40,441 nt of DNA from Bacillota bacterium (GTDB lineage: Bacteria; Bacillota; Dehalobacteriia; UBA4068): the NCBI GenBank assembly GCA_017440145.1, contig JAFSHU010000083.1, positions 1 to 40,441 of the forward strand, written 5' to 3'. Below the pieces are notes generated by a model. The model had not been told where the DNA came from, made no database searches, and saw only the letters and a program-made list of their open reading frames with translations. Positions 1,967 to 14,098 of the stretch are shown here, piece after piece. Position 1 is the first letter of the stretch, and the number at the start of each line of letters is the position of its first letter. A program made the position numbers and the translations under genes.

Positions 1967-4336
1967 ATGATCGAAAACAAAATACAAGATCCCCAGGCTG
2001 GCCTGAATCCCCGCCCCGTGGTGGGGGATTGGCAGATCCTGCCGGCTATGCCCCTGCGCGGTCTGGTGGTCTACCCCTATATGATGACCCAGCTGGATGT
2101 GGGCCGTGATCTGTCCATCAATGCCGTGGATGAAGCCATGCGGGATGGCAGCAATCTGATTTTTCTGGCCATGCAGAAGGACAGCAATATCGATGACCCG
2201 GCGATGGAGGACATCCACGAGATCGGCACCGTATGCAAGATCTGCCAGGTGCTGAAGCTTCCCGGCGGCACAGTCCGCCTGATGGTGGAAGGACAATACC
2301 GGGCCCGGCTGCTGGGCACCCTGCAGGAACGTCCCTTCATTATGGCGGAAATTTCCCCCCGCCCGGACGATTTTGACTGCAGCGCAGCAGAGCTGGAGGC
2401 CTACCGCCGCATCATGTGGGAGCGCTTCGAGCATTATGCACAGGAATCCCGCCGCATTTCCCCGGATATGCTGGCCGGCTTCTCCACCGTGGAGGATGGC
2501 TCCCAGCTGGTGAATCTCATCGCCGGGCAGCTGAATCTTTCCATGGAGCAGCGCCAGCAGATGCTGGAGATCCTTTCCCTGCGCCAGCGCATCGAAAAGC
2601 TGCTGGATCTTTTGGATTGGGAAATGGAAGTCTTTGAGATGGAGCGGAGCATTGCCAACCGCACCCGGCAGCAGATGGAAAAGAGCCAGCGGGATTATTA
2701 CCTGCGGGAGCAGATCAAATCCATCCAGGTGGAGCTGGGCGAGGACGGCGAGCGCGCCGAGGAAGTGGCGGAATACCGGGCCAAAGCGGAAGCAGCCCAG
2801 CTGCCCAAGCACGCGCTGGATCGCTTCAACGTGGAGCTGAAGCGTCTGGAAAAGACCCCGGCGCAAATGGCGGAAGCCAATGTGATCGCCAACTATCTGG
2901 ATCTCCTTCTGGATCTTCCCTGGAACAAAACCACCGAAGAAAATCGGGACATACATAAAGCCCAGCGCATCCTGGATGCCGACCATTATGGTCTGGAAAA
3001 GCCCAAGGAACGCATTCTGGAATACCTGGCCAGCTGCCAGCTGAAAAAGGGCATGAAAGGCCCCATCCTCTGTCTGGTGGGCCCCCCCGGCGTGGGCAAA
3101 ACCTCTCTGGGGCGCTCCATTGCCCGGGCCACGGGCCGGGAATTTGTCCGCCTGAGCCTGGGCGGCGTGCGGGATGAAGCGGAGATTCGCGGTCACCGCC
3201 GCACCTATATCGGCTCCATGCCCGGACGCATCCTCCAGTGTATCAAAGAGGTGGGCTGCAACCACCCCCTCTTCCTTCTGGATGAGGTAGACAAAATGGC
3301 CAGCGACTGGAAGGGCGACCCCACCAGCGCACTGCTGGAAGCACTCGATCCGGAGCAGAACAGCACCTTCTCCGATCATTATCTGGAGATTCCCTATGAC
3401 CTTTCTCAGGTCATGTTCATCACCACCGCAAATTACCGCAGCAACATCCCTGCTCCTCTGCAGGACAGAATGGAGATCATCGAGGTTTCCAGCTATACGG
3501 AAGTGGAGAAGCTGAACATCGCCAGGAAGCATCTGGTTCCGAAGCAACTTGCCGAACACGGCATCGAAAAGAACCAGCTGAAGATCGGCAGCCCTGCCCT
3601 GAAAAAGCTGATCCGGGATTATACCCGGGAGGCAGGTGTTCGTGAGCTGGAGCGGCGCATCGGCAAAATCTGCCGCGTGGCGGCCCGGGATATCGTGGGC
3701 GGCGACCCCGGCCCCTTCTCCGTCACCCCCACGAATATGGAAAGCTATCTTGGCAGACCGAAATATCGGGATGACAAGCTGATCCGCGAGCCTCAGGTGG
3801 GCGTGGCCATCGGCCTGGCCTGGACGGAGGTGGGCGGCGAGATTTTGCAGGTGGAAGCCCAGACCATCCCCGGCAAGGGCAAATTCACCATCACCGGCCA
3901 GCTGGGCGATGTGATGGTGGAAAGCGTGAAAGCCGCCTACACCTATCTGCGGACGGTAGGTTCTCAGTATAATATTGAAGACAATGTGGAAGAAAAAACC
4001 GACATCCATGTGCATGTGCCAGAAGGCGCTGTGCCCAAGGACGGCCCCAGCGCCGGTGTGACCATCACCACTGCGCTGGCCTCCCAATTCTCCGGCAGGC
4101 CTGTCCGCTGCGATGTGGCCATGACCGGGGAGATCAGCCTCCACGGGCGTGTCTTGGCAGTGGGCGGCATCAAGGAAAAGCTGCTGGCTGCTTATCGCAA
4201 CGGCATCACCGAGATCATCCTGCCCAAGGCCTGTGAGCGGGACTTGGAAGACCTGCCCACGGATGTGCGGGAAAAGATGCAGTTCCATTTGGTAGAGCAT
4301 CTCAGTCAGGTGCTGGAGCTGGCTCTGGTAAAATAA
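1967..4336 (+). CDS. lon: ATP-dependent protease La (Lon)
   Basis: Cytoplasmic AAA+ serine protease of 789 residues that degrades misfolded and regulatory proteins. The N-terminal substrate domain ([15 protein letters not shown]) covers about residues 20-215. The AAA+ module has Walker A GPPGVGKT at 372-379 (Lys378), followed by [18 protein letters not shown]. The protease domain carries the catalytic dyad Ser695 in KDGPSAG and Lys736 in [10 protein letters not shown]. All key residues are intact and the length is typical. The ATG at 1967 follows AAAGAGGTAG. A TATAAT hexamer at 1923-1928 could be the -10 box, but no clear -35 or CtsR site is visible. A terminator follows directly. Confidence 0.97.
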
Positions 4337-4349
4337 GCTTTGCGAGCAC

Positions 4350-4382
4350 AAACTCCCCGCTGAATCAGTGGGGAGTTTTCAT
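4350..4382 (+). terminator. Rho-independent terminator of lon
   Basis: Arms AAACTCCCC (4350-4358) and GGGGAGTTT (4370-4378) enclose an 11-base loop and are followed by TTC. It starts 14 bases after the lon stop codon. Confidence 0.85.
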
Positions 4383-4449
4383 CTCCACAAAAAAAGCAGG
4401 GAATCATCCCTCAAAAAGTCTGCTTTATCTGGTCTCTCCGGAAAATCTC

Positions 4450-4492
4450 TTGTTTTCTGTTCTGCGATATGCTAAAATGATTTTGGTATAAT
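4450..4492 (+). promoter_or_regulatory. Two overlapping sigma-A-type promoter elements for the peptide-modification cassette
   Basis: The first has TTGTTT (4450-4455), a 17-base spacer and TAAAAT (4473-4478), with TG one base before the -10 (extended -10). The second is an extended -10, TGGTATAAT (4484-4492), without a clear -35. Both lie in an AT-rich stretch between the lon terminator and the gene at 4542. Confidence 0.55.
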
Positions 4493-4541
4493 TTTTCTAT
4501 TTTATAAATTTTTGATCAAAAAGGAAAGGCTGGCGATCTTC

Positions 4542-5138
4542 ATGGGAAACACGAATGACGAACTGAAAATCAAAGAATTGCTGCAAAAAGATGCAGAAAC
4601 TGTTGCGATCAGAAAAAAACATGCTGAAGCCCTGAAAAAGGTGGAATTCTCCCCCATCGAAGCGCAGATCGCTTTCATCAAAGAACTGGTCAAGGATGAA
4701 GCGGAAGCAGCAAAATTCCTGAAAGCGCCGAAGGAATATGCCCTGGAACATAACATTCGCCTCGCTCCTGAAACTGTTGAGGAACTGCTTGATTCCGTCA
4801 TCTTCAACGAGGACATCACCGACCCGCTCAAGGATCAGCTGGGTGCCAATGGCTTAAAAGATCTGGTGGATCTGCGGCAGATGGCCAGCGGTAACAACGC
4901 TCTCGTTAGTGCTTCCAGTGTTATGGCCGGTGCAGCAGTCGTAGCAGCAGTGGCAGCAGTGGCAACAGCGGTTATTTCCGCGACCCGCTCGACTAAGCCT
5001 TCTGACCTCTCTGCCATCCGGGATATCAGCAGCAAGGATCCCTCTTCCATCCGGGATCTGAACAACTCGCCCCTCATCCGTTTGCCCAAGGGAAAGACCT
5101 TCATCCAGAGAGATCCCATTCGCAAAATCAGAAAATAA
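4542..5138 (+). CDS. Candidate RiPP precursor-like protein: helical leader, Ala/Val segment, repeated C-terminal tail
   Basis: A 198-residue protein with no known family that I can name. The ATG at 4542 follows AGGAAAGG by 12 bases; an upstream TTG in frame has no ribosome site. Residues 1-110 are charged and helical. The stretch FLKAPKEYALEHNIRLAPE (about 59-77) recalls the F-x-(A/L)-x-P-...-GI-x-LPE signature of nitrile-hydratase/Nif11-type RiPP leaders. An Ala/Val-rich hydrophobic stretch of about 20 residues follows (MAGAAVVAAVAAVATAV). The basic tail repeats an 11-residue unit, SAIRDISSKDP then SSIRDLNNSPL, followed by more Ile-Arg pairs (LIRLPKGK, DPIRKIRK). It is the first gene of a cassette with a radical SAM enzyme, a radical-SAM-like partner and a kinase, and a hairpin separates it from them. 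The precursor role is an inference. It could instead be a single-span membrane or exported protein. Confidence 0.5.
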   Translation: MGNTNDELKIKELLQKDAETVAIRKKHAEALKKVEFSPIEAQIAFIKELVKDEAEAAKFLKAPKEYALEHNIRLAPETVEELLDSVIFNEDITDPLKDQLGANGLKDLVDLRQMASGNNALVSASSVMAGAAVVAAVAAVATAVISATRSTKPSDLSAIRDISSKDPSSIRDLNNSPLIRLPKGKTFIQRDPIRKIRK

Positions 5139-5152
5139 GCTTGTTCTTCTTC

Positions 5153-5187
5153 CGGGGTTCCTGCTGATACAGGAACCCCGTCGTTTA
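5153..5187 (+). terminator. Internal hairpin between precursor-like gene and modification genes (leaky terminator or mRNA stabiliser)
   Basis: A perfect 11-bp stem, CGGGGTTCCTG (5153-5163) and CAGGAACCCCG (5170-5180), has a 6-base loop and is followed by TCGTTTAG, a weak T tract. Its place between a putative precursor and downstream enzymes would let the first gene be made in excess. Confidence 0.6.
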
Positions 5188-5227
5188 GAAGCAGCCACAG
5201 AATACAGCTCACAAGGATGACAGAATC

Positions 5228-6301
5228 ATGAATGAACACCTATCAGAAAATCAGAAGCTTCTGCGCTATGCCCTGCTCCTGAACATGCCGCTGCACTACA
5301 ACGGCCTGGTTATGGAGAACACGAACCGCTGCAATGCCCGCTGCGCCATCTGCTACCAATCCGCAGGGGGCCAGGAAAACAATACCCGGCTGGATCTGGA
5401 AACGGCAAAAACCTGCATCCGGGAGGCGGCGGAGATCGATTGCATCGAGCCTCGCTTTCACCTGGCCGGCGGGGAAGCTTTTTTATACCCGGAAGATTGC
5501 TTTGCACTCTTCCAAACGGCAAAAGAAGCCGGTTATACAATGATCACCGCAACCACCAACGGCTTTTGGGGCAAAGACCTGCAGAAGGCCCGGCAGACCT
5601 GTCAGCATCTGCGGGAATGCGGACTCACATCCATGGAGCTTTCCTGGGATTACTGGCACAGCGAATTCATCCCCGCCGCTGCCATGGACAACTGCCTGCT
5701 GGCCTGCAGGGAATATGAGATCGGCACGAACCTGCGCCTGCTCACCACCAAAAGCCATGATATGGAGGAAGCCCTCTCCAGGCTGAACCCGGAAGCGCTG
5801 CGTGCAGCGGATAAAATCACCAGCGCACCGGTTTTCGCCACGGGCAGAGCAGCACAGATCCTGCCCAGGGAGGATTTCTATCACTCCCGGGTGGGGCTGG
5901 ATGACAACTGCCACTCCACGCTGAACCTCACGGTAAATAGCTTCGGGGAGGTTTTCCCCTGCTGCGCCGGTATGGATACCTGCCGGGATTGCGCCGGCGG
6001 AAACATCTACCAGCAGCCCATCTCCCACATCGTGGAGAGCATGAATGCCGACCCGCTTCTGCGGCAGCTGGTCTTTTTGGGTGTGAAATCCTTCCTCCCT
6101 CTGCTGCGCGCCAATGGCTGTGAGATCGACGAAGAAAAATACTTCTCCATCTGCCAGCTGTGCAGCAGCATTTTTTCAAACCCGGAATATCTCGCCATCA
6201 TTCAAAACGAATTCAACAAAAAGCGGCAATCCGCGCTGGAAAAAGCGGTTGCCCGCCTGGAAGCCAAATTTTTAGGGCAGGAGAAACAGAACGATGCTTG
6301 A
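5228..6301 (+). CDS. Radical SAM enzyme with SPASM-like C-terminal cysteine region
   Basis: 357 residues; the ATG follows AAGGATGA by 7 bases. The SAM-binding [4Fe-4S] motif is CX3CX2C at Cys35, Cys39 and Cys42 (NRCNARCAICYQ). The GGE motif follows at about residue 81 (LAGGEAF), then TTNGFWG and ELSWDYWHSEFIP. The C-terminal third holds further cysteines: DDNCHSTLNL, then FPCCAGMDTCRDCAGG, NGCEID and ICQLC. They resemble a SPASM/Twitch region binding auxiliary Fe-S clusters, as in peptide-modifying radical SAM enzymes. It overlaps the next gene by 8 bases. Context suggests the substrate is the tail of the protein encoded at 4542. The chemistry (epimerisation, crosslink or other) cannot be read from the sequence. 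Confidence 0.8.
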   Translation: MNEHLSENQKLLRYALLLNMPLHYNGLVMENTNRCNARCAICYQSAGGQENNTRLDLETAKTCIREAAEIDCIEPRFHLAGGEAFLYPEDCFALFQTAKEAGYTMITATTNGFWGKDLQKARQTCQHLRECGLTSMELSWDYWHSEFIPAAAMDNCLLACREYEIGTNLRLLTTKSHDMEEALSRLNPEALRAADKITSAPVFATGRAAQILPREDFYHSRVGLDDNCHSTLNLTVNSFGEVFPCCAGMDTCRDCAGGNIYQQPISHIVESMNADPLLRQLVFLGVKSFLPLLRANGCEIDEEKYFSICQLCSSIFSNPEYLAIIQNEFNKKRQSALEKAVARLEAKFLGQEKQNDA

Positions 6302-7154
6302 TAAAAAAGCACAGCTCATCAGCAATTTTCAATCTATCATGCTTATTTTGGAGCCGGATGAAGCAGGCAGCGATTTTTCCCTTCCCGGGGAAAGCATCTG
6401 CGATTGGCTGCGTCGGTATGAGCAATGGTTTGACCAAAACTGCGGCCTGAGTGAAAAAAAACGCGGTCTCCTTCTCTATGGGCGGAACATCAGCATTAGC
6501 GGCACCGGCCTCCTGCAGCGGAAGGCGGCTCTGAAAAATCTGCTCCGTAGGCTCACGGAAATGAACCAATCCATCTCTTTGCACCTGAATTTCCGGGAAA
6601 TTTATGAAGATTTTTCCTTCCTGGAAGAGATTTGCGGAGAAAGCGCCATCAGCTCCCTGGGACTCAATATCGATGGCAACGGGCTATCTCCGTCAGCAGA
6701 GGAGCTGGAAGCCTTTCTGCAAAAGCTCCGCGGCCTGCGCCGTTCTTTGATACTCTTCGGCAGCATGGATGAGATGCGGCAGCTGAAGCTTTTTTCCTCC
6801 CCTGCCTTGAACAGCACGGATTTGAGCGTATCCCTCTATCCGGAGGAAAGCGCGGAAGCCCCCAGTGATTTCGTCCGCCCCTGCGCCAACCGCCTGATGC
6901 TTTGCATCGCGCCGGATGGAAAGCTCTACCCCTGTCTTGGCCTGATAGGCTTTGAGAAATTTGCGCTGGGCTCCGTCTACGATCAGGACGAAGAAAATCT
7001 GCTCCTGCTGGAAAACCACCCCTTGAATCTGCTCCGGCTCAAGGCAGAAGGCCCCAGCCTGCTCCATGAGGATGTGATCGACAGCAGCACCACCCTTCCC
7101 TGGATGTGCAAGCTGCACAGAGGAGAATTGCTGGAATATGATGAACTCCAATAA
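6294..7154 (+). CDS. Radical-SAM-like partner protein lacking the CX3CX2C motif
   Basis: 286 residues, with an AGGAGA site before the ATG inside the end of the preceding gene. No known family is certain. The N-terminal two thirds look like an alpha/beta barrel with no SAM-cluster cysteine triad. The C-terminal part has a SPASM-like pattern, PCANRLMLCIAPDGKLYPC then GLIGFEKFALGSVYD, and a last MCKLH. This resembles the C-terminal domain of radical SAM maturases (C...C-xxPDGxxYPC...GxxxF.LGnV). I infer a catalytically dead subunit that binds an auxiliary cluster or the peptide and pairs with the enzyme at 5228. Alternatively it may be an unrelated barrel. The overlap with its neighbours implies co-translation. 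Confidence 0.6.
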   Translation: MLDKKAQLISNFQSIMLILEPDEAGSDFSLPGESICDWLRRYEQWFDQNCGLSEKKRGLLLYGRNISISGTGLLQRKAALKNLLRRLTEMNQSISLHLNFREIYEDFSFLEEICGESAISSLGLNIDGNGLSPSAEELEAFLQKLRGLRRSLILFGSMDEMRQLKLFSSPALNSTDLSVSLYPEESAEAPSDFVRPCANRLMLCIAPDGKLYPCLGLIGFEKFALGSVYDQDEENLLLLENHPLNLLRLKAEGPSLLHEDVIDSSTTLPWMCKLHRGELLEYDELQ

Positions 7155-8073
7155 ACCCTTCCTCCAGCAGCTGCGGATCCTCTTTCCCGAAGAACAGCAG
7201 CTCTGGATGCGCCTCCCCTCCACACGAAATCTTCTCTACAAGGTGCGCCTGAAGGAGGGCAGCCGGATCGTAAAGCTTTACCCAGAGGAGCGAAAAAACA
7301 ATATGCTGGCCGAATATGGCGTAATTTCCTGCAACGCCTTCCCGCTGAAGGCATACCCCTGCCCGGAGCAGGATTGCTTCCAAAAGGGAGAAGAGCGCTT
7401 TTACGCCAGGATCTACAGCTTTCTGGAAGGAAAGCCGATCCCCGAGACGGCGGAGGGCTTCTTTCAGCTGGGGAAAGCCATCGGCAGCCTGCACAAATTC
7501 TGGTCGGAACGGGAAAAGCCCGATTGGCTGCCGAGCATCGGCCCGGAAGAGCTGATCACGCGGCCTTTGGAACAGCTGGCTGCGGTGGTGAAAGAAGAGG
7601 AGCTGGAACTCCCCCGCTGCTATGCAGAGCAGGTCGAGGAGATCCTGCAAGCCTACCGGCAGCCGGAATTTCTTGGCTTCTGTCATGGAGATACCCACAG
7701 TCAAAATGCCTGCTTACTTCCGGAGGGCAGGGCAGCACTTTTTGATTTCGAGGATGCCTGCTGGCAATGGCCCGCCTACGACCTGGCCACCGCCATTTGG
7801 GGGACCTTCCGCTTTGGCGGCGGCCCTGCGCTTTGGAATCCTCTGATCGAAGGCTATGAGACAGAGCTTCCTCTGGATGCTGTGCAGGGTGGTCTGCTTC
7901 CCTACCTGCTCTTTGCCCGGCACCTGTGGTGGCTGGGTCTTTATGCGGAAAACTGGGAGAGCTGGCAGCTGGGAAAAGAAAAAGAGAGCTTCTTTTCCGG
8001 CGGGCTTTCGCTGCTGCAGTCCATCGCGGAGGAATCCTGCGGCCTGGAGGCGCAGGAAGGGCTTTCGTCTTGA
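7138..8073 (+). CDS. APH/choline-kinase-fold phosphotransferase
   Basis: 311 residues. The ATG at 7138 overlaps the end of the previous gene by 17 bases and follows AGAGGAG by 12 bases. The kinase signature is intact: HGDTHSQN (catalytic loop, Asp then Asn) and LFDFEDACW (metal-binding Asp). The N-lobe shows VKLYPEERKNNMLAEYG with a candidate ATP-binding Lys and a helix Glu. The family covers aminoglycoside, homoserine, choline and fructosamine kinases, so the substrate cannot be told from the motif. Its place as last gene of the cassette suggests it phosphorylates the peptide, a carrier or a small precursor. APH-fold kinases do occur in some RiPP clusters. Self-resistance by phosphorylating the product is another option. 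Confidence 0.75.
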   Translation: MMNSNKPFLQQLRILFPEEQQLWMRLPSTRNLLYKVRLKEGSRIVKLYPEERKNNMLAEYGVISCNAFPLKAYPCPEQDCFQKGEERFYARIYSFLEGKPIPETAEGFFQLGKAIGSLHKFWSEREKPDWLPSIGPEELITRPLEQLAAVVKEEELELPRCYAEQVEEILQAYRQPEFLGFCHGDTHSQNACLLPEGRAALFDFEDACWQWPAYDLATAIWGTFRFGGGPALWNPLIEGYETELPLDAVQGGLLPYLLFARHLWWLGLYAENWESWQLGKEKESFFSGGLSLLQSIAEESCGLEAQEGLSS

Positions 8074-8089
8074 TCAGAATTGCATACAA

Positions 8090-8121
8090 AAAGTCCTGGG
8101 AGCTGTGCTCCCAGGACTTTT
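8090..8121. terminator. Bidirectional terminator between the cassette and the SLH-chagasin gene
   Basis: A perfect 13-bp stem, AAAGTCCTGGGAG (8090-8102) and CTCCCAGGACTTT (8108-8120), has a 5-base loop. T tracts on both strands serve the convergent genes ending at 8073 and 8148. Confidence 0.88.
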
Positions 8122-8147
8122 ATGTATCTTTTAGCAAAAGCAGCAGA

Positions 8148-9032
8148 TTAGCGGGTCAGCTGAACGACTTTGCCTTCCGCATCTACGGCTACGGTCATAT
8201 GCATTTCATCCGCAGCATCTTTCACGTCTTCACCGGCGCGGGTGTAGAAGAAATCCAGAACAGCGCGGCCTTCCTTCATGCCGTAAATGGCAAAACGGAA
8301 GTTGCTGAGGGTACCGACCAGGCCTTCTTCAGACTGGCTTTCTTCATAGCCCAGGGCATCCACGCGAACGATGGATTCATCATAAGCAGCGACGCTCCAG
8401 GAATAGCCGGTGCTGACATTGCCGGGGAGGGAGATGACCAGGGGCAGATTTTCGCAGCTGGGGGCCAGCTTCTGCAGGATGGTGGCTGCTTCGGCACGGG
8501 TCAGCATGTTTGCCGGGCGGAAGGTGCCATCCGGGAAGCCGTTCATCAGAGAGGTGTTCTGCATCAGCTGCACTGCGGAAACTGCGGCAGCACTGATCTG
8601 CGCCTGATCTTCAAATTCACGGGGAATATTCAGGGTGGCGGGCATATTCACCACTGCGTTGAGGATAAAGCTCTGCAGAGCCTGAGCCACTTCCTGGCGG
8701 CTGATGCTCTGGCTCAGATCACTGCCTTCCGGAAGGATACCCAGAGAAACAGCCCAGCCGGAGACGGTTTCCGCATCCGCTTCGGTGCTGCCATTGGCCA
8801 GCTTCCAAAGGGCGGTGGCGAAATCCTGCTTGCTGATGAGAGTGCCGGGGCCGTAAAGATCAACGGAAATACCGGGAAGGATTTGTGCTGCGGAAAGCTC
8901 CTGCACAGCTTCATAATACCAGGCGTCTGCGCTGATATCCGTATAGGAAGCATTCCCTGCAGCCAGGGCAGAGCTCATCAGGCAAGGGAGAACAGCAGCA
9001 GTAGCAAAGATGCGAACCAAAGATTTTTTCAT
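8148..9032 (-). CDS. Exported SLH-domain protein with C-terminal chagasin-like (I42) domain
   Basis: 294 residues with a signal peptide ending near ALAAG. Two SLH-type repeats follow: about 28-75 (YTDISADAWYYEAVQEL) and about 145-190 (NTSLMNGFPDGTFRPANMLTRAEAA). SLH repeats anchor proteins to pyruvylated secondary wall polymers. The last roughly 100 residues carry the chagasin loop pattern LPGNVSTGYSWSV, then FRFAIYGMKEGRAVLDFFYTR. This matches the NxTTGYxW, W/FxF..xxxGxxxLxFxYxR scheme of I42 cysteine-protease inhibitors. The predicted product is a wall-anchored inhibitor of papain-like proteases. The start follows GGAGG on the minus strand. The SLH call is secure; the inhibitor domain is likely but partly degenerate. 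Confidence 0.75.
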   Translation of the reverse strand: MKKSLVRIFATAAVLPCLMSSALAAGNASYTDISADAWYYEAVQELSAAQILPGISVDLYGPGTLISKQDFATALWKLANGSTEADAETVSGWAVSLGILPEGSDLSQSISRQEVAQALQSFILNAVVNMPATLNIPREFEDQAQISAAAVSAVQLMQNTSLMNGFPDGTFRPANMLTRAEAATILQKLAPSCENLPLVISLPGNVSTGYSWSVAAYDESIVRVDALGYEESQSEEGLVGTLSNFRFAIYGMKEGRAVLDFFYTRAGEDVKDAADEMHMTVAVDAEGKVVQLTR

Positions 9033-9117
9033 GAAATTCGTCCTCCAAAAAAATTTTTATGGCTTATTTTGTTTTTATGCGTATTTTATTCGCTTCTGAA
9101 TACTTAGATGGAGCAAC

Positions 9118-10095
9118 TCAAGAAAAGGTTCCCCATTTTCTTAAGAAATTTTTAATTTTTTCGGAAACCCGGGGTTCATCCACCAGATAGCTGAGACCAT
9201 GGCGGGCGCCCTCCACCAGAAGCAGCTCTTTCGGGGCAGCGCAGGCTTCATAATTCCGCCTGCTCATCTCCGGCGGTACAAAGGTATCTGCCAGACCATG
9301 GACGAAAAGCATGGGGATCTTGTTCCCAGCCAGAGCATCTATACTGCTGCATTCCCGAAAGCCAAAGCCGGCGATGCAGCGGCAAAGCAGATCTGCGATC
9401 TCAATGGTGGGATGCACCGGCAAATGGAAGCGCCGGGGAAGCACATGGGCAAATTGTTCCCAGGGAGAGGTAAAACCACTGTCCGCCAGGATGCCGCGAA
9501 CATTGGCAGGCAACTCCAGACCGGTGGCCATCATCACAGAAGCCGCACCCATGGAAATGCCGCTGAAAAAGATGTCATGCTCCGGGCCAAAGCGCTCCGC
9601 CACATAGCGGGCCCAGCTCTGGCAGTCATAACGCTCCTTCACCCCAAAGCAGGTAAAGCAGCCCTGGCTTTCCCCGTGGGCGCGCTGGAATATATTCAAT
9701 ATGTTATAGCCCAGGCCATGATAATATTGATAGGCGCAGCTGAAATCATTGTAGCCACTGCTGCGCCAGCCGTGAACCAGAATGATCGTGCCCTTTGGCT
9801 GGGCTTCCGCAGCGGGGAGAAAAAGCGCCGCCAGCTTCAGCCCATCATAGCTTCTGATGCAAATTCGCTCCGTATCCTGCTGCCGCATCCAGGCTACGCC
9901 ATCCCGGACCCGCTGCTCCCATTTCCCGCTCACACCGGGGGGAATGGCGTCTGCCAGCGCCCGGTTTGGCCAGCGGCAGATGCCAACATAAAACAGAACC
10001 CCAAACAGCAGAAGAGCGGCAAAGAGCAAAGCCAAAAGAATCCACAGAACCAGCAAGGGATGCGCCTCCTTTCCCAGTGGGAAAAAGCTATGCAT
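9118..10095 (-). CDS. Membrane-anchored alpha/beta hydrolase
   Basis: 325 residues: one N-terminal membrane segment (about 13-38) followed by an alpha/beta-hydrolase domain. The oxyanion region is ILVHGWRSSGYND and the nucleophile elbow is GISMGA. The acid is in HGLADTFVPP and the histidine in GARHGLS, so the triad is complete. It resembles YqkD-type S33-like hydrolases of Firmicutes, which have no settled substrate. It is encoded downstream of ctpA on the same strand, with a short hairpin between them. The start codon has only a weak ribosome site (GGCGGG) lying within that hairpin, so translation may be damped. Confidence 0.8.
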   Translation of the reverse strand: MHSFFPLGKEAHPLLVLWILLALLFAALLLFGVLFYVGICRWPNRALADAIPPGVSGKWEQRVRDGVAWMRQQDTERICIRSYDGLKLAALFLPAAEAQPKGTIILVHGWRSSGYNDFSCAYQYYHGLGYNILNIFQRAHGESQGCFTCFGVKERYDCQSWARYVAERFGPEHDIFFSGISMGAASVMMATGLELPANVRGILADSGFTSPWEQFAHVLPRRFHLPVHPTIEIADLLCRCIAGFGFRECSSIDALAGNKIPMLFVHGLADTFVPPEMSRRNYEACAAPKELLLVEGARHGLSYLVDEPRVSEKIKNFLRKWGTFS

Positions 10096-10100
10096 AAGGA

Positions 10101-10122
10101 TACCCGCCCCAGAGGACGGGTA
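10101..10122 (-). other. Hairpin between ctpA and the hydrolase gene
   Basis: Arms TACCCG (10101-10106) and CGGGTA (10117-10122) lie 8 bases after the ctpA stop on the minus strand. There is no clear T tract, and the 3' arm covers the only candidate ribosome site of the hydrolase gene. It may be a weak terminator or a translation-damping hairpin. Confidence 0.4.
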
Positions 10123-10130
10123 CAGTTTCC

Positions 10131-11285
10131 TTATTTATTATCCAGAAAATCTCTGGCAGCGTCCAGGCAGGGATTCAGTTCCGGATCTGTGGACCAGTAT
10201 TCTTCCCCGGTCAGATCCTCCGGCAGGGGAACCTCCACATCCACAGGCAGACCCACGCCATGCAGGTCGTAATCCTTGGGCGTATAATAATGGCTGCGGG
10301 TATAGCGCAGCCCGGCGCCGGAATCCAGAGTGATCAGGGCCTGCGTGATGCCCTTGCCGTAGGTATTGGAGCCGATCAGGGCCGCTCCGGCCTGCTCCCG
10401 CAGGGCGGCAGCCAGCACCTCAGAGGCAGAGGCAGAGTATTCATTCACCAGAACCACCAGCTCCATCCCGGCAAGCTGCCCATCCACGGATTCGTATTCC
10501 GCCATGCCCTCCACGGTCTTTTCCTTCAGAAGGATCTCCCCCGGGGGGATAAAGAAATTGGCAATGTTCAGGGCTGCATCCAGCGCCCCGCCGCCATTGC
10601 TGCGAAGATCGATAATGAGCGTGTTCAGCACCCGATCCTTTCGCAGGCTCAGATAGGTATCAATGAATTCATCCGTGGTCTGTTCATTAAAATCATAGAT
10701 ATAGATATATCCGGTGTTGGGGTGTTCCTCGAAGAGCTCCCCTTCCACGGATTCGGCGATGATCTCCTCCCGCACGATGGTGACGCTGTATTCCCGGCCG
10801 TCCGGATGCCGCAGCTCCAAAGTGACCGGCTCGCCAATCTCCCCGCGAACCTTGCTCACAGCCAGGGAGACATCATAGCCCAAAAGACTTTCCCCATCCG
10901 CAGAGAGGATCACATCCCCGATGCTGATTTCCGTATCAATGGAGGGGCCTTTTTCCAGGACGGAATAAACCTCGATATTCCCCTCTTCATTGTTGATCAT
11001 GGAAATACCAACGCCGCCAAAGCTGCCTTCATAATCCTCCAGCAGCACCTTAAATTCTCCTTCGGTATAATAATAGGCGTAATCATCATAAAGCTCCGCG
11101 ATATGCCCGCGCAGCTCCTCCTCCCCCTGCAGAGCTGCGCGGCCCTGGGGGCTTTCCAAAAGCTCCTCCATGCTCAGGATGGGAAGATCCGGATCGATCA
11201 CGGGGGCGGTATCCCCCACGAAAAAGCCATAAAGCTCCATGGTCAGCAGAAACAGGGGCAAAAAGAAGCCGGTAAAGATTCCCAT
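10131..11285 (-). CDS. S41-family carboxyl-terminal processing peptidase
   Basis: 384 residues: an N-terminal signal anchor (GFFLPLFLLTMELYGFF), a helical N-domain, a PDZ domain at about 90-170 (GGVGISM, GDVILSADGESL) and an S41 tail-protease domain. Catalytic Ser lies in YSASASEVLA and Lys in SNTYGKGITQA, both present. CtpA-type enzymes cut the C-termini of envelope proteins. The gene begins 12 bases after the M23 hydrolase and has the site AAGGAG. The order ftsE-ftsX-M23-ctpA is common in Firmicutes and points to turnover or control of septal peptidoglycan hydrolases. Confidence 0.92.
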   Translation of the reverse strand: MGIFTGFFLPLFLLTMELYGFFVGDTAPVIDPDLPILSMEELLESPQGRAALQGEEELRGHIAELYDDYAYYYTEGEFKVLLEDYEGSFGGVGISMINNEEGNIEVYSVLEKGPSIDTEISIGDVILSADGESLLGYDVSLAVSKVRGEIGEPVTLELRHPDGREYSVTIVREEIIAESVEGELFEEHPNTGYIYIYDFNEQTTDEFIDTYLSLRKDRVLNTLIIDLRSNGGGALDAALNIANFFIPPGEILLKEKTVEGMAEYESVDGQLAGMELVVLVNEYSASASEVLAAALREQAGAALIGSNTYGKGITQALITLDSGAGLRYTRSHYYTPKDYDLHGVGLPVDVEVPLPEDLTGEEYWSTDPELNPCLDAARDFLDNK

Positions 11286-11297
11286 GATATGCTCTCC

Positions 11298-12512
11298 TTA
11301 TTTCAGGTAATTCCAGGGGCTGGTGCTGCTACCGTTCAAACGAACCTCAAAGTGCAGATGATTCCCGGTGGAGGCGCCGGTGGTGCCCACATAGCCGATC
11401 ACATCGCCGGGAACCACATATTCGCCAACGGAAAAATTCCCGTAGCCGCTCAAATGCCCGTAAAGAGAAACCACCTGGTCACCGTGGTCGATCATCACGC
11501 AGTTGCCGTAGCCGCCGATCCATTCCGCATAAATGACCTTGCCCTCCGCCACAGCATAAAGGGGGGTGCCGCCATCTGCCGGAATATCAATGCCGTTATG
11601 GAAGCGCTGATCCCCATAAAGGGGGTGGGTACGCCAGCCGTATTCGGAGCTGACATAGGTCCAGGCAGCGGGCAGGGGCCAGATGAAGGAGCCGCCGAAG
11701 CTGAGGGTGGAATCAGAGATCATATCCCGCAGCAGCTCTTCTGCCTGTTCGCCTGCAGCCACTTCCTGCTGCCACAGAGCTTCCAGCTCCTCCAGGGTGG
11801 TGCCGGCCTCTGCGACCTTGGCTTCATACTGATTGCAAAGGGCATTCAGATCCGCCTTTTCATCCTCCAGATCATGCATCAGGCTTTCCTGCTCCACCAC
11901 GGCCTCCTGGGCCAGCTTCTTATTATATTCAATATTGGTCTTTTCCGTATTGATCTGGTGGAGAAGCACCTCATCCTGCTCCATAATGCGCTGGGTCAGA
12001 TCATAGACAGAAAGGAAATCCTCAAAGCTGTCTGTGCCAAAGACCACATCCAGCATGGTAACATCCCCATAGACATAGAGATTCACCAGGCGCTGCTGCA
12101 AAAGGGCCTGCCGCTCTGCCAGGCGTTCCTCCGCAGCGGCGATTTCCAGCTCACATTCATCCACCACAGCCTGATAGGCGGCAATGGTCTGATTCGTGGC
12201 ATCGATTTTCTCCTGAACCAGGCTCATCTGCCCTTCCAGAGTAGAAATCTGCGCTTCCAGATCGCTGATCTGCCCTTCCTGGGCATCGATCTGATCCTGC
12301 AGCCGTTCCTGGCGGATGGAGATCTCTTTCATGTATTCCCGCAGCTCATTCACATCCATATCCTCCATATTCGGGGGATCATCCGCTGCGGAGACTGCTT
12401 CCGGCGCAGCCAGCTCCATGGCCAGGGCGGGCAGATACGCCGCACCAAAGGCCAGAATGCCGCAGAGCAGCAGGATCAGCAGGCCGGAAAGCCACTTTTG
12501 TTTTCTACCCAT
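11298..12512 (-). CDS. EnvC/PcsB-like peptidoglycan hydrolase: coiled coil plus M23 peptidase
   Basis: 404 residues from the ATG at 12512, chosen because GGAGAG lies 7 bases before it. An ATG 15 bases upstream has no ribosome site. There is a signal anchor (about 7-30), then a long coiled coil (about 55-245, with many EEQ, LEAQIS and LEGQM heptads). The C-terminal M23 metallopeptidase domain has zinc ligands in HNGIDIPADGG and GNHLHFEVRLNG. Such proteins are activated at the division site by FtsEX, which is encoded immediately upstream. Both zinc motifs are intact, so it is probably active, unlike E. coli EnvC, which only activates amidases. Confidence 0.92.
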   Translation of the reverse strand: MGRKQKWLSGLLILLLCGILAFGAAYLPALAMELAAPEAVSAADDPPNMEDMDVNELREYMKEISIRQERLQDQIDAQEGQISDLEAQISTLEGQMSLVQEKIDATNQTIAAYQAVVDECELEIAAAEERLAERQALLQQRLVNLYVYGDVTMLDVVFGTDSFEDFLSVYDLTQRIMEQDEVLLHQINTEKTNIEYNKKLAQEAVVEQESLMHDLEDEKADLNALCNQYEAKVAEAGTTLEELEALWQQEVAAGEQAEELLRDMISDSTLSFGGSFIWPLPAAWTYVSSEYGWRTHPLYGDQRFHNGIDIPADGGTPLYAVAEGKVIYAEWIGGYGNCVMIDHGDQVVSLYGHLSGYGNFSVGEYVVPGDVIGYVGTTGASTGNHLHFEVRLNGSSTSPWNYLK

Positions 12513-12536
12513 ATACCATCTCTCCATAAGGAATTT

Positions 12537-13421
12537 TTATACATCCAGAAAACGGGCCAGCGGGAACATGCTGCCGATCAAACCCAGCAGGAAGCCGGCG
12601 GCCAGGGTAAAGCCGGTGGCAGGCGCCCAGACGGCAGAAAGCGGCAGGATATTCAGGAAGCCGATATTGATGCTGACATAAAGCGCCGCCCGGCTGTAGA
12701 GGAAAAGCAGCAGGCCCAAGGCCAGAACTGCCCCCACCAGGCCCAGGATCATGCCTTCCAGGATGAAGGGCCAGCGAATGAAGGCATCCGTGGCGCCCAC
12801 CCATTTCATGACCATGATCTCCTTCTTTCGGGTCTGTACGGTCAGGCGGGTGGCCATGGCGATCAGCACCACCGCGCAAAGGGCCAGCAGACCCATGATC
12901 ACATAGCCGAATTTCCGCAGGCCATCCGTGAGGCTGAGCAGCTTCTCTACAGTTCCTTCGCCATATTGGACTTCATAGATCCCTTCGATCTGAGAAACAG
13001 CCTCTGCAATGGCGCTGACCTGATTCGTATCGATGGCGGTGATGGAGAACATATCCGGGAGCGGATTCACCCCGCCCAGGGATTCCACCAGGTCACTGTC
13101 CCCATAGCGTTCCTCCAGAGTATGAATGCCCTGCTCCTTCGGGACAAAGCTCACATCCGCCACGCCGGCGATCCATTTCAGCTCCTGCTCGATCTCCTTC
13201 CGCTCTGCAGGAACCACATCAAAATCCACATAAGCAAGAACGCGGACATCCTTTTCCACATCCGTCACATTGGCGTTGATATTCAGCAGCAGCAGCCAGA
13301 AGAAGGCGCAGAGAAAGAGGGAAATGGTGATGGTGATGATGGCCGCTGCCGTCATCCAGCCGTTGTTCCGCATGGATTTGAAGCACTGCGGCGCGATATA
13401 ACGAAAGCTGCTTAATTTCAT
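12537..13421 (-). CDS. ftsX: Cell division protein FtsX
   Basis: 294 residues. It forms the membrane part of the FtsEX complex, which passes ATP-driven shape changes to peptidoglycan hydrolases. The N-terminal transmembrane helix (TAAAIITITISLFLCAFFWLL) is followed by an extracellular loop of about 130 residues and three more helices. KKEIMVMKWVGATDAFIRWPF is the conserved FtsX cytoplasmic segment. The ATG overlaps the ftsE stop codon (ATGA), with GGGGGG as ribosome site 8 bases before it. A GTG nine bases upstream is less likely. Confidence 0.95.
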   Translation of the reverse strand: MKLSSFRYIAPQCFKSMRNNGWMTAAAIITITISLFLCAFFWLLLLNINANVTDVEKDVRVLAYVDFDVVPAERKEIEQELKWIAGVADVSFVPKEQGIHTLEERYGDSDLVESLGGVNPLPDMFSITAIDTNQVSAIAEAVSQIEGIYEVQYGEGTVEKLLSLTDGLRKFGYVIMGLLALCAVVLIAMATRLTVQTRKKEIMVMKWVGATDAFIRWPFILEGMILGLVGAVLALGLLLFLYSRAALYVSINIGFLNILPLSAVWAPATGFTLAAGFLLGLIGSMFPLARFLDV

Positions 13422-14098
13422 AGCTGCCACCCCCCCACTGCATCCCCGATCAAATGACCGGATTTCAGGGTCAGCACCCGTTTCTGCATCCGCTCCACGA
13501 TGATCTGATCGTGGGTGGCCATAACGATGGTGGTGCCCTCTTTATTGATCTCGTCAAAGAGCTGCATCAGCTCCCCGGAGGTTTTGGGGTCCAGATCCCC
13601 GGTGGGCTCATCCGCAAAGAGGATCAGGGGGTTATTGATGATGGCGCGGGCCACAGCCACACGCTGCTGCTCCCCGCCGGAAAGATTCATCACATGCTCA
13701 TGCTCCCTGCCCCCCAGGCCCACACGCTCCAGAACCTCCGGAACCCGGCGGCGGATCTCCGGCCAGGGGCGTTCCACCGCCTTCAGGGCAAAGCTCACAT
13801 TGTCAAAGACAGTCCCCTTTTCCATCAGGCGGAAATCCTGAAACACAACGCCGGTATTCCGGCGCAGACGCACCATTTCCGGCACTGTCAGCCGGGTAAC
13901 GCTGCGGCCGCCGATCATGATCTGCCCGGCGGTGGGCGGCTCCTCCCGGAAGAGCAGGCGGATCAGGGTACTTTTCCCGGCACCGGAAGCGCCGGTCAGG
14001 AAAACGAACTCACCGTAATCTATGCTCAAGTTAATATCCGTCAAAGCGGCAATCCCATTCTTATAGGTTTTGCCCACATTAAACGTTTGTATCAGCAT
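13418..14098 (-). CDS. ftsE: Cell division ATP-binding protein FtsE
   Basis: 226-residue ABC ATPase partner of FtsX. Walker A is GASGAGKST (Lys42). The signature is LSGGEQQRVAVARA, Walker B is LILFADEPTGDLD, and the H-loop is MATHDQ. Length and motifs are typical. The site AGGAGG lies 4 bases before the ATG. It is the first gene of the minus-strand envelope run. The 228 bp between it and the divergent hpf gene must hold both promoters. Confidence 0.96.
   Translation of the reverse strand: MLIQTFNVGKTYKNGIAALTDINLSIDYGEFVFLTGASGAGKSTLIRLLFREEPPTAGQIMIGGRSVTRLTVPEMVRLRRNTGVVFQDFRLMEKGTVFDNVSFALKAVERPWPEIRRRVPEVLERVGLGGREHEHVMNLSGGEQQRVAVARAIINNPLILFADEPTGDLDPKTSGELMQLFDEINKEGTTIVMATHDQIIVERMQKRVLTLKSGHLIGDAVGGWQL

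Follow-up and report, generated by a model that had tools for sequence, protein, structure and literature searches.

The stretch analysed here, called the window below, is the whole 40,441-nucleotide contig JAFSHU010000083.1 of a Bacillota bacterium (class Dehalobacteriia, assembly GCA_017440145.1). On its plus strand, between lon and a minus-strand gene of unassigned kind, lies an operon-like set of four genes, which encode a precursor-like protein, a radical S-adenosylmethionine (SAM) enzyme, a catalytically dead relative of this enzyme and a kinase, and which we also found on a plasmid of the marine alphaproteobacterium Tropicibacter oceani. We consider it probable, on balance, that this is a cassette of the ribosomally synthesized and post-translationally modified peptide (RiPP) type that epimerizes and phosphorylates its own precursor, the dead twin acting as a non-catalytic partner. 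Judging from the sequences, what appears to be new is the combination, within a RiPP-type system, of an EpeE-like epimerase, a dead twin dedicated to it and a kinase. Only a few radical SAM epimerases are known, and the way in which they choose residues in peptides is poorly understood. If the proposal is true, the retention of an active enzyme together with its dead twin in two phyla would allow the guiding of the substrate to be separated from catalysis and so to be tested, and it would be chemically unusual for a single ribosomal peptide to combine D-residues with phosphorylation.

The epimerase homologue, its dead twin and the kinase

The radical SAM gene (5228..6301, plus strand) encodes a protein of 357 aa, a putative peptide epimerase of the YydG/EpeE type. 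It matches TIGR04078, the model of the YydG peptide epimerase, with E 1e-34 (120 bits, where the equivalog cut-off is 300 bits), and the EpeE/YydG structures PDB 8AI1-8AI6 with E 1e-26 and about 27% identity over 300 residues, while a profile built from the radical SAM enzymes of the cassettes reaches EpeE with E 3e-39. The CX3CX2C motif of the SAM cluster, claimed by an earlier reading based on the letters of the window (the sequence-only reading), is indeed found at Cys35, Cys39 and Cys42. The auxiliary-cluster cysteines are also kept (C228, C245, C309 and C312), and Cys246 corresponds in the alignment to EpeE Cys223, which has been proposed to donate the hydrogen (PMC8326336). SAM-cluster, auxiliary and donor cysteines are present in all the YydG-like proteins compared (8/8), and in the 5228 product they may well play the same roles as in EpeE. 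This protein is a homologue of the peptide epimerase YydG/EpeE. In a tree of epimerases the four radical SAM proteins of the cassettes form one clade (89/97), which is the only part resolved in a tree of long branches. Models of the defence protein viperin match the 5228 product as well, through the general fold only, and precursor, partner and kinase match no defence model; the reading as a defence system was rejected on these grounds.

The next gene (6294..7154, plus strand) encodes a SPASM-only protein of 286 aa in which the CX3CX2C motif is missing, as the sequence-only reading had stated. Its C-terminal part aligns by profile with the SPASM region of the 5228-type epimerase (E 8.5e-5). 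Read along this alignment, the position of the donor cysteine is occupied in the partners by an invariant leucine (YPCLG vs FPCC), and the last CxxC is replaced, by position, by a CxxH that is invariant in the four partners (4/4). A template-free model of the 6294 product gave nine Foldseek matches with E < 0.001, all of them EpeE structures (9/9). The model is weak, with a predicted local distance difference test score (pLDDT) of 47 overall and of 70-80 in residues 80-150, a fair beta-alpha core, and this match counts only together with the evidence from the sequence. The 6294 product is best read as a degenerate relative of its partner epimerase's fold, a putative pseudo-epimerase, and it may still hold the auxiliary cluster.

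The last gene (7138..8073, plus strand; 311 aa) encodes the APH-fold kinase that had been claimed on its Brenner motif. The family assignment is clear (PF01636, E 2.5e-22), and the motifs HGDTHSQN and DFE are present. Among named proteins, homoserine and antibiotic kinases are the closest to it. Phosphorylation of a RiPP precursor at Ser/Thr by an APH-like kinase is documented for CaoK (PMC9486802).

Recurrence of the cassette and the variable tail of the precursor

A sister species, represented by the metagenome-assembled genome S16M_St_76, carries the same four genes in the same place, and among 43 genomes of the class only this one and the window genome possess the four-gene set; in a further member of the class (G022) a distant YydG-like protein is encoded in another cluster, which also includes a B12 radical SAM methyltransferase. 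In 399 genomes drawn from the phylum the only other matches were in G149 and G241, both without the four-gene set. Two further genome draws, one of them on nearly the same genomes, added no cassette, and a scan of 11 million named contigs, with the partner as the single query sequence, returned the sister species only. The cassette is rare in Bacillota. Of 72,556 plasmids searched, one carries it, NZ_CP124618.1 of T. oceani, where the order is that of the window (precursor, radical SAM gene, partner, phosphotransferase) and identity to the window products is 48% for the radical SAM protein, 29% for the partner, 28% for the kinase and 35% for the precursor leader. Dead partner and kinase thus recur in the same order in another phylum. 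After the kinase, the Tropicibacter run of overlapping genes continues with a TIGR03913-like radical SAM gene, a trypsin-like peptidase and an M23 peptidase. Further on there is a second precursor and, opposite and facing it, a second radical SAM/partner pair, so that the plasmid holds two precursors, two pairs and one kinase; with two pairs but a single kinase, radical SAM gene and partner therefore duplicate as a unit. The sequence-only reading had proposed, as a test, to look for homologues of the precursor that occur mostly without the radical SAM gene, or whose tails are not conserved beside the enzymes: as far as the data reach, all three homologues found, of which the sister species has one and Tropicibacter two, adjoin such a radical SAM gene and keep the tail motif.

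The precursor-like protein of the window (4542..5138, plus strand) is 198 aa long and consists of a leader (about residues 1-115), an Ala/Val-rich hydrophobic segment (about 127-147) and a tail with a repeated DLSxIRDL-like unit and the sequence IRLPKG. The leader-like N-terminal half with a repeated tail, as described from the letters alone, holds with one reservation: the repeat is real and modest, two 28-nt copies of 79% identity that lie 33 nt apart, and the sister species has one copy fewer. The leader is homologous to those of the Tropicibacter precursors (E 3e-20 and 2e-13), and the segment behind it also aligns across phyla, with a score of 98 vs a shuffled mean of 32 (standard deviation 5). 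The precursors have in common the tail pattern DL..[IL][RK]...[IV]R[LM]P.G. Those adjacent to a kinase, in both phyla, share in addition R[ST][ST]Kx[ST]DL, and at this place the third precursor, which has its own radical SAM/partner pair without a kinase, reads GKIDPDEL.

Comparison of the sister species shows 5 differences in the 462 nt of leader and hydrophobic part and 11 in the 96 nt of the tail, which has a 36-nt indel in addition (Fisher p 5e-6 for the tail vs the rest). The precursor combines a fixed leader with a changing tail, which suggests a natural library. Concerning the whole cassette, we compared positions 1967-14098 of the window with the corresponding locus of the sister species (L012): synonymous divergence is 0.07 for the precursor, 0.05 for the radical SAM gene, 0.15 for the partner and 0.23 for the kinase, and 0.55-0.92 for three flanking genes (lon, FtsE and a hydrolase), about tenfold lower over precursor and radical SAM gene than in the flanks. 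These rates point to a probable recent exchange of the cassette, and especially of its first half, between the two species.

Cysteine is missing from the hydrophobic part and the tail of the cassette precursors; the window precursor and Tropicibacter precursor 1 contain none at all, Tropicibacter precursor 2 has a single one within its leader, and the window precursor is also devoid of tryptophan. With no cysteine in the first two precursors, a C-alpha radical would therefore find no peptide thiol for a thioether. Thioether or lanthionine chemistry was rejected, as there is no cysteine in the precursor and no lyase was found. A structural model of the precursor (pLDDT 47, very low confidence) predicts one helix over the hydrophobic segment 126-149 and carries no argument.

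Proposed maturation, known systems and competing explanations

From the genes, homologies, motifs and co-occurrence just described we infer the following reaction, sites, partnership, kinase target and release. The substrate would be the 4542 product, whose N-terminal residues, about 115, would act as a leader bringing it to the epimerase and the dead twin. The 5228 product would abstract the C-alpha hydrogen from one or more residues, the likeliest being the conserved Ile/Val in the tail or a Val/Ala within the hydrophobic stretch, and Cys246 would return a hydrogen from the opposite face, giving a D-residue. The 6294 product, having neither SAM cluster nor donor cysteine, may be a non-catalytic partner that binds leader or tail, and the 7138 kinase would phosphorylate Ser/Thr of the tail, possibly the R[ST][ST]Kx[ST]DL hydroxyls common to the two phyla. 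A search of the 84% complete genome for a C39 peptidase was negative; release may therefore rely on a housekeeping protease, or the product may remain in the cell.

The general features of a RiPP locus are present: a precursor gene beside modifying enzymes, a conserved leader and a variable tail. The RiPP reading first made from the letters gains support from co-occurrence and from the tail motif, and stays putative. The claim that no characterised RiPP class has exactly this gene set has held so far, as no described class that we could find matches and a literature search found no description of the set, most subscription journals being outside its coverage. Epipeptide loci, proteusins and class V lanthipeptides each have a defining feature that was tested here and is absent, so the set belongs to none of the three. 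Like epeXEPAB (yydFGHIJ) of Bacillus subtilis, the cassette has a homologous radical SAM epimerase beside the precursor gene, with the same cluster and donor cysteines. Unlike it, it lacks the short YydF precursor (YydF gives no match to the 198-aa product), the EpeP protease and the EpeAB transporter, and adds the dead twin and the kinase; a membrane protease with an ABC transporter beside the epimerase is missing from the window cassette and from the Tropicibacter run alike, and the canonical YydG locus of Macrococcoides is without partner and kinase. The proteusins (PoyA/PoyD, OspD) share with it a long leader, an Ala/Val-rich stretch and expected epimerization. The cassette differs from them in that its enzyme matches YydG and not the PoyD type, and its leader is not recognised as NHLP: an NHLP/Nif11 identity was rejected, with no match at E up to 10 in any of the four precursors (4/4). 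Class V lanthipeptides (CaoK/CaoY) also have an APH-like kinase beside the precursor, together with a HopA1 lyase and precursor cysteines, in place of which the cassette has radical SAM enzymes. Sactipeptides and ranthipeptides differ in that the cassette precursors offer no core cysteine for a thioether. Finally, the systems that mature DUF1843 ("GDL motif") peptides through TIGR03913 resemble the Tropicibacter run in its TIGR03913-like gene, which the window cassette lacks, and differ from it in that no DUF1843 peptide is annotated there. This gene (L016, 11902-13524), elsewhere found beside such peptides, stands without an annotated DUF1843 gene.

Several observations weigh against the epimerizing cassette as proposed. 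For an epipeptide the precursor is long, and no known leader family matches it; the 5228 product has an Asn in place of EpeE Asp210, a residue that is mutated in structure 8AI6, and its score of 120 bits misses the TIGR04078 cut-off of 300; the window cassette has no protease or exporter, nor does the 84% complete genome show a C39 peptidase; and recurrence is limited to one pair of sister species and a single distant plasmid, which carries the core pair twice. Given the missed cut-off and the Asn, another radical reaction on the tail is therefore possible (a C-C or C-N cross-link, or backbone cleavage), with the likeness to YydG reflecting ancestry only, and YydG-like proteins do occur in unrelated contexts, such as that of G022. 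Against this, donor and cluster cysteines are all kept, and the usual partners of thioether and Trp cross-links are missing from the hydrophobic part and tail of the window precursor; we regard such a reaction as unlikely. Rather less likely still, the substrate could be a resident, possibly membrane-attached protein with a modified tail, matured as a protein and not as a RiPP: the missing export and proteolysis genes and the low-confidence helix would suit it, but its tail diverges far faster than the leader between sister species, and the Tropicibacter peptidase genes lie in the same overlapping run.

The part of the kinase is also debatable. It could act on a small molecule or in self-protection, outside peptide maturation, as its homoserine and antibiotic kinase relatives would suggest, although it keeps the same place and order in two phyla and overlaps the partner gene; this is somewhat unlikely, and would leave the epimerase part of the proposal intact. 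It is very improbable that phosphorylation of Ser/Thr opens a dehydration pathway in which elimination then yields dehydroamino acids, the route taken by class V lanthipeptides and thioamitides. APH-like kinases act in this way in the former (PMC9486802), but the HopA1-like lyase PF17914 was not found in the 84% complete genome by a search that was positive in a control genome, none is annotated in the window cassette or the Tropicibacter one, and there is no cysteine to form lanthionine. Returning to epimerization with phosphorylation, its fullest form would be a new RiPP class spread between phyla, in which an active EpeE-like enzyme and a catalytically dead twin dedicated to it make up a two-protein epimerase, and a kinase phosphorylates the tail with its D-residues; we advance it tentatively, a little short of calling it probable.

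Borders, regulatory elements and related loci

The four open reading frames and both terminators of the sequence-only reading were recovered at their positions, as were the overlaps of the enzyme genes, 8 bp between radical SAM gene and SPASM-only gene and 17 bp between the latter and the kinase. On the plus strand, the hairpin of the upstream lon (about 4349..4379; RNA fold -24 kcal/mol, z -5.0) marks the left edge of the cassette, and a 15-bp stem followed by a T-rich tail after the kinase (8089..8121; -29.9 kcal/mol) marks the right one. The promoter also claimed is backed in part: a consensus promoter scan upstream of the cassette reported no site, but the promoter-like block TTGTTT-17 nt-TGCTAAAAT with an extended -10 (4451 to about 4480, plus strand) is identical in the sister species amid neighbouring sequence that has diverged. 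A perfect 11-bp hairpin (5153..5180, plus strand) lies between the precursor gene and the radical SAM gene; it is conserved in the sister species, and Tropicibacter also has a hairpin between these genes. The window hairpin is possibly an attenuator or a protector of the mRNA end, which would fit the common need for more precursor than enzyme. An identity as a known RNA element was rejected, there being no Rfam match. An origin from a prophage or virus was likewise rejected: PHROGs has no family for precursor or partner, phages gave no match and viral contigs no locus.

Three other loci with YydG-like genes were noticed. A separate RiPP-like cluster of the same class (L009, 5714-10522) encodes a 65-aa NHLP-like peptide, a B12 radical SAM C-methyltransferase (TIGR03975), a distant YydG-like protein and a membrane protein of HExxH-type, M50-like appearance. 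At L014 (3814-4965) a distant YydG-like radical SAM gene lies on a short contig, with a 103-aa open reading frame of unassigned kind upstream. At L013 (6662-16217) islands are flanked by a complete gltX and by two copies of the 5' portion of this gene, and one island holds a broken YydG-like gene with M50-like and ABC genes; this looks like repeated integration at gltX.
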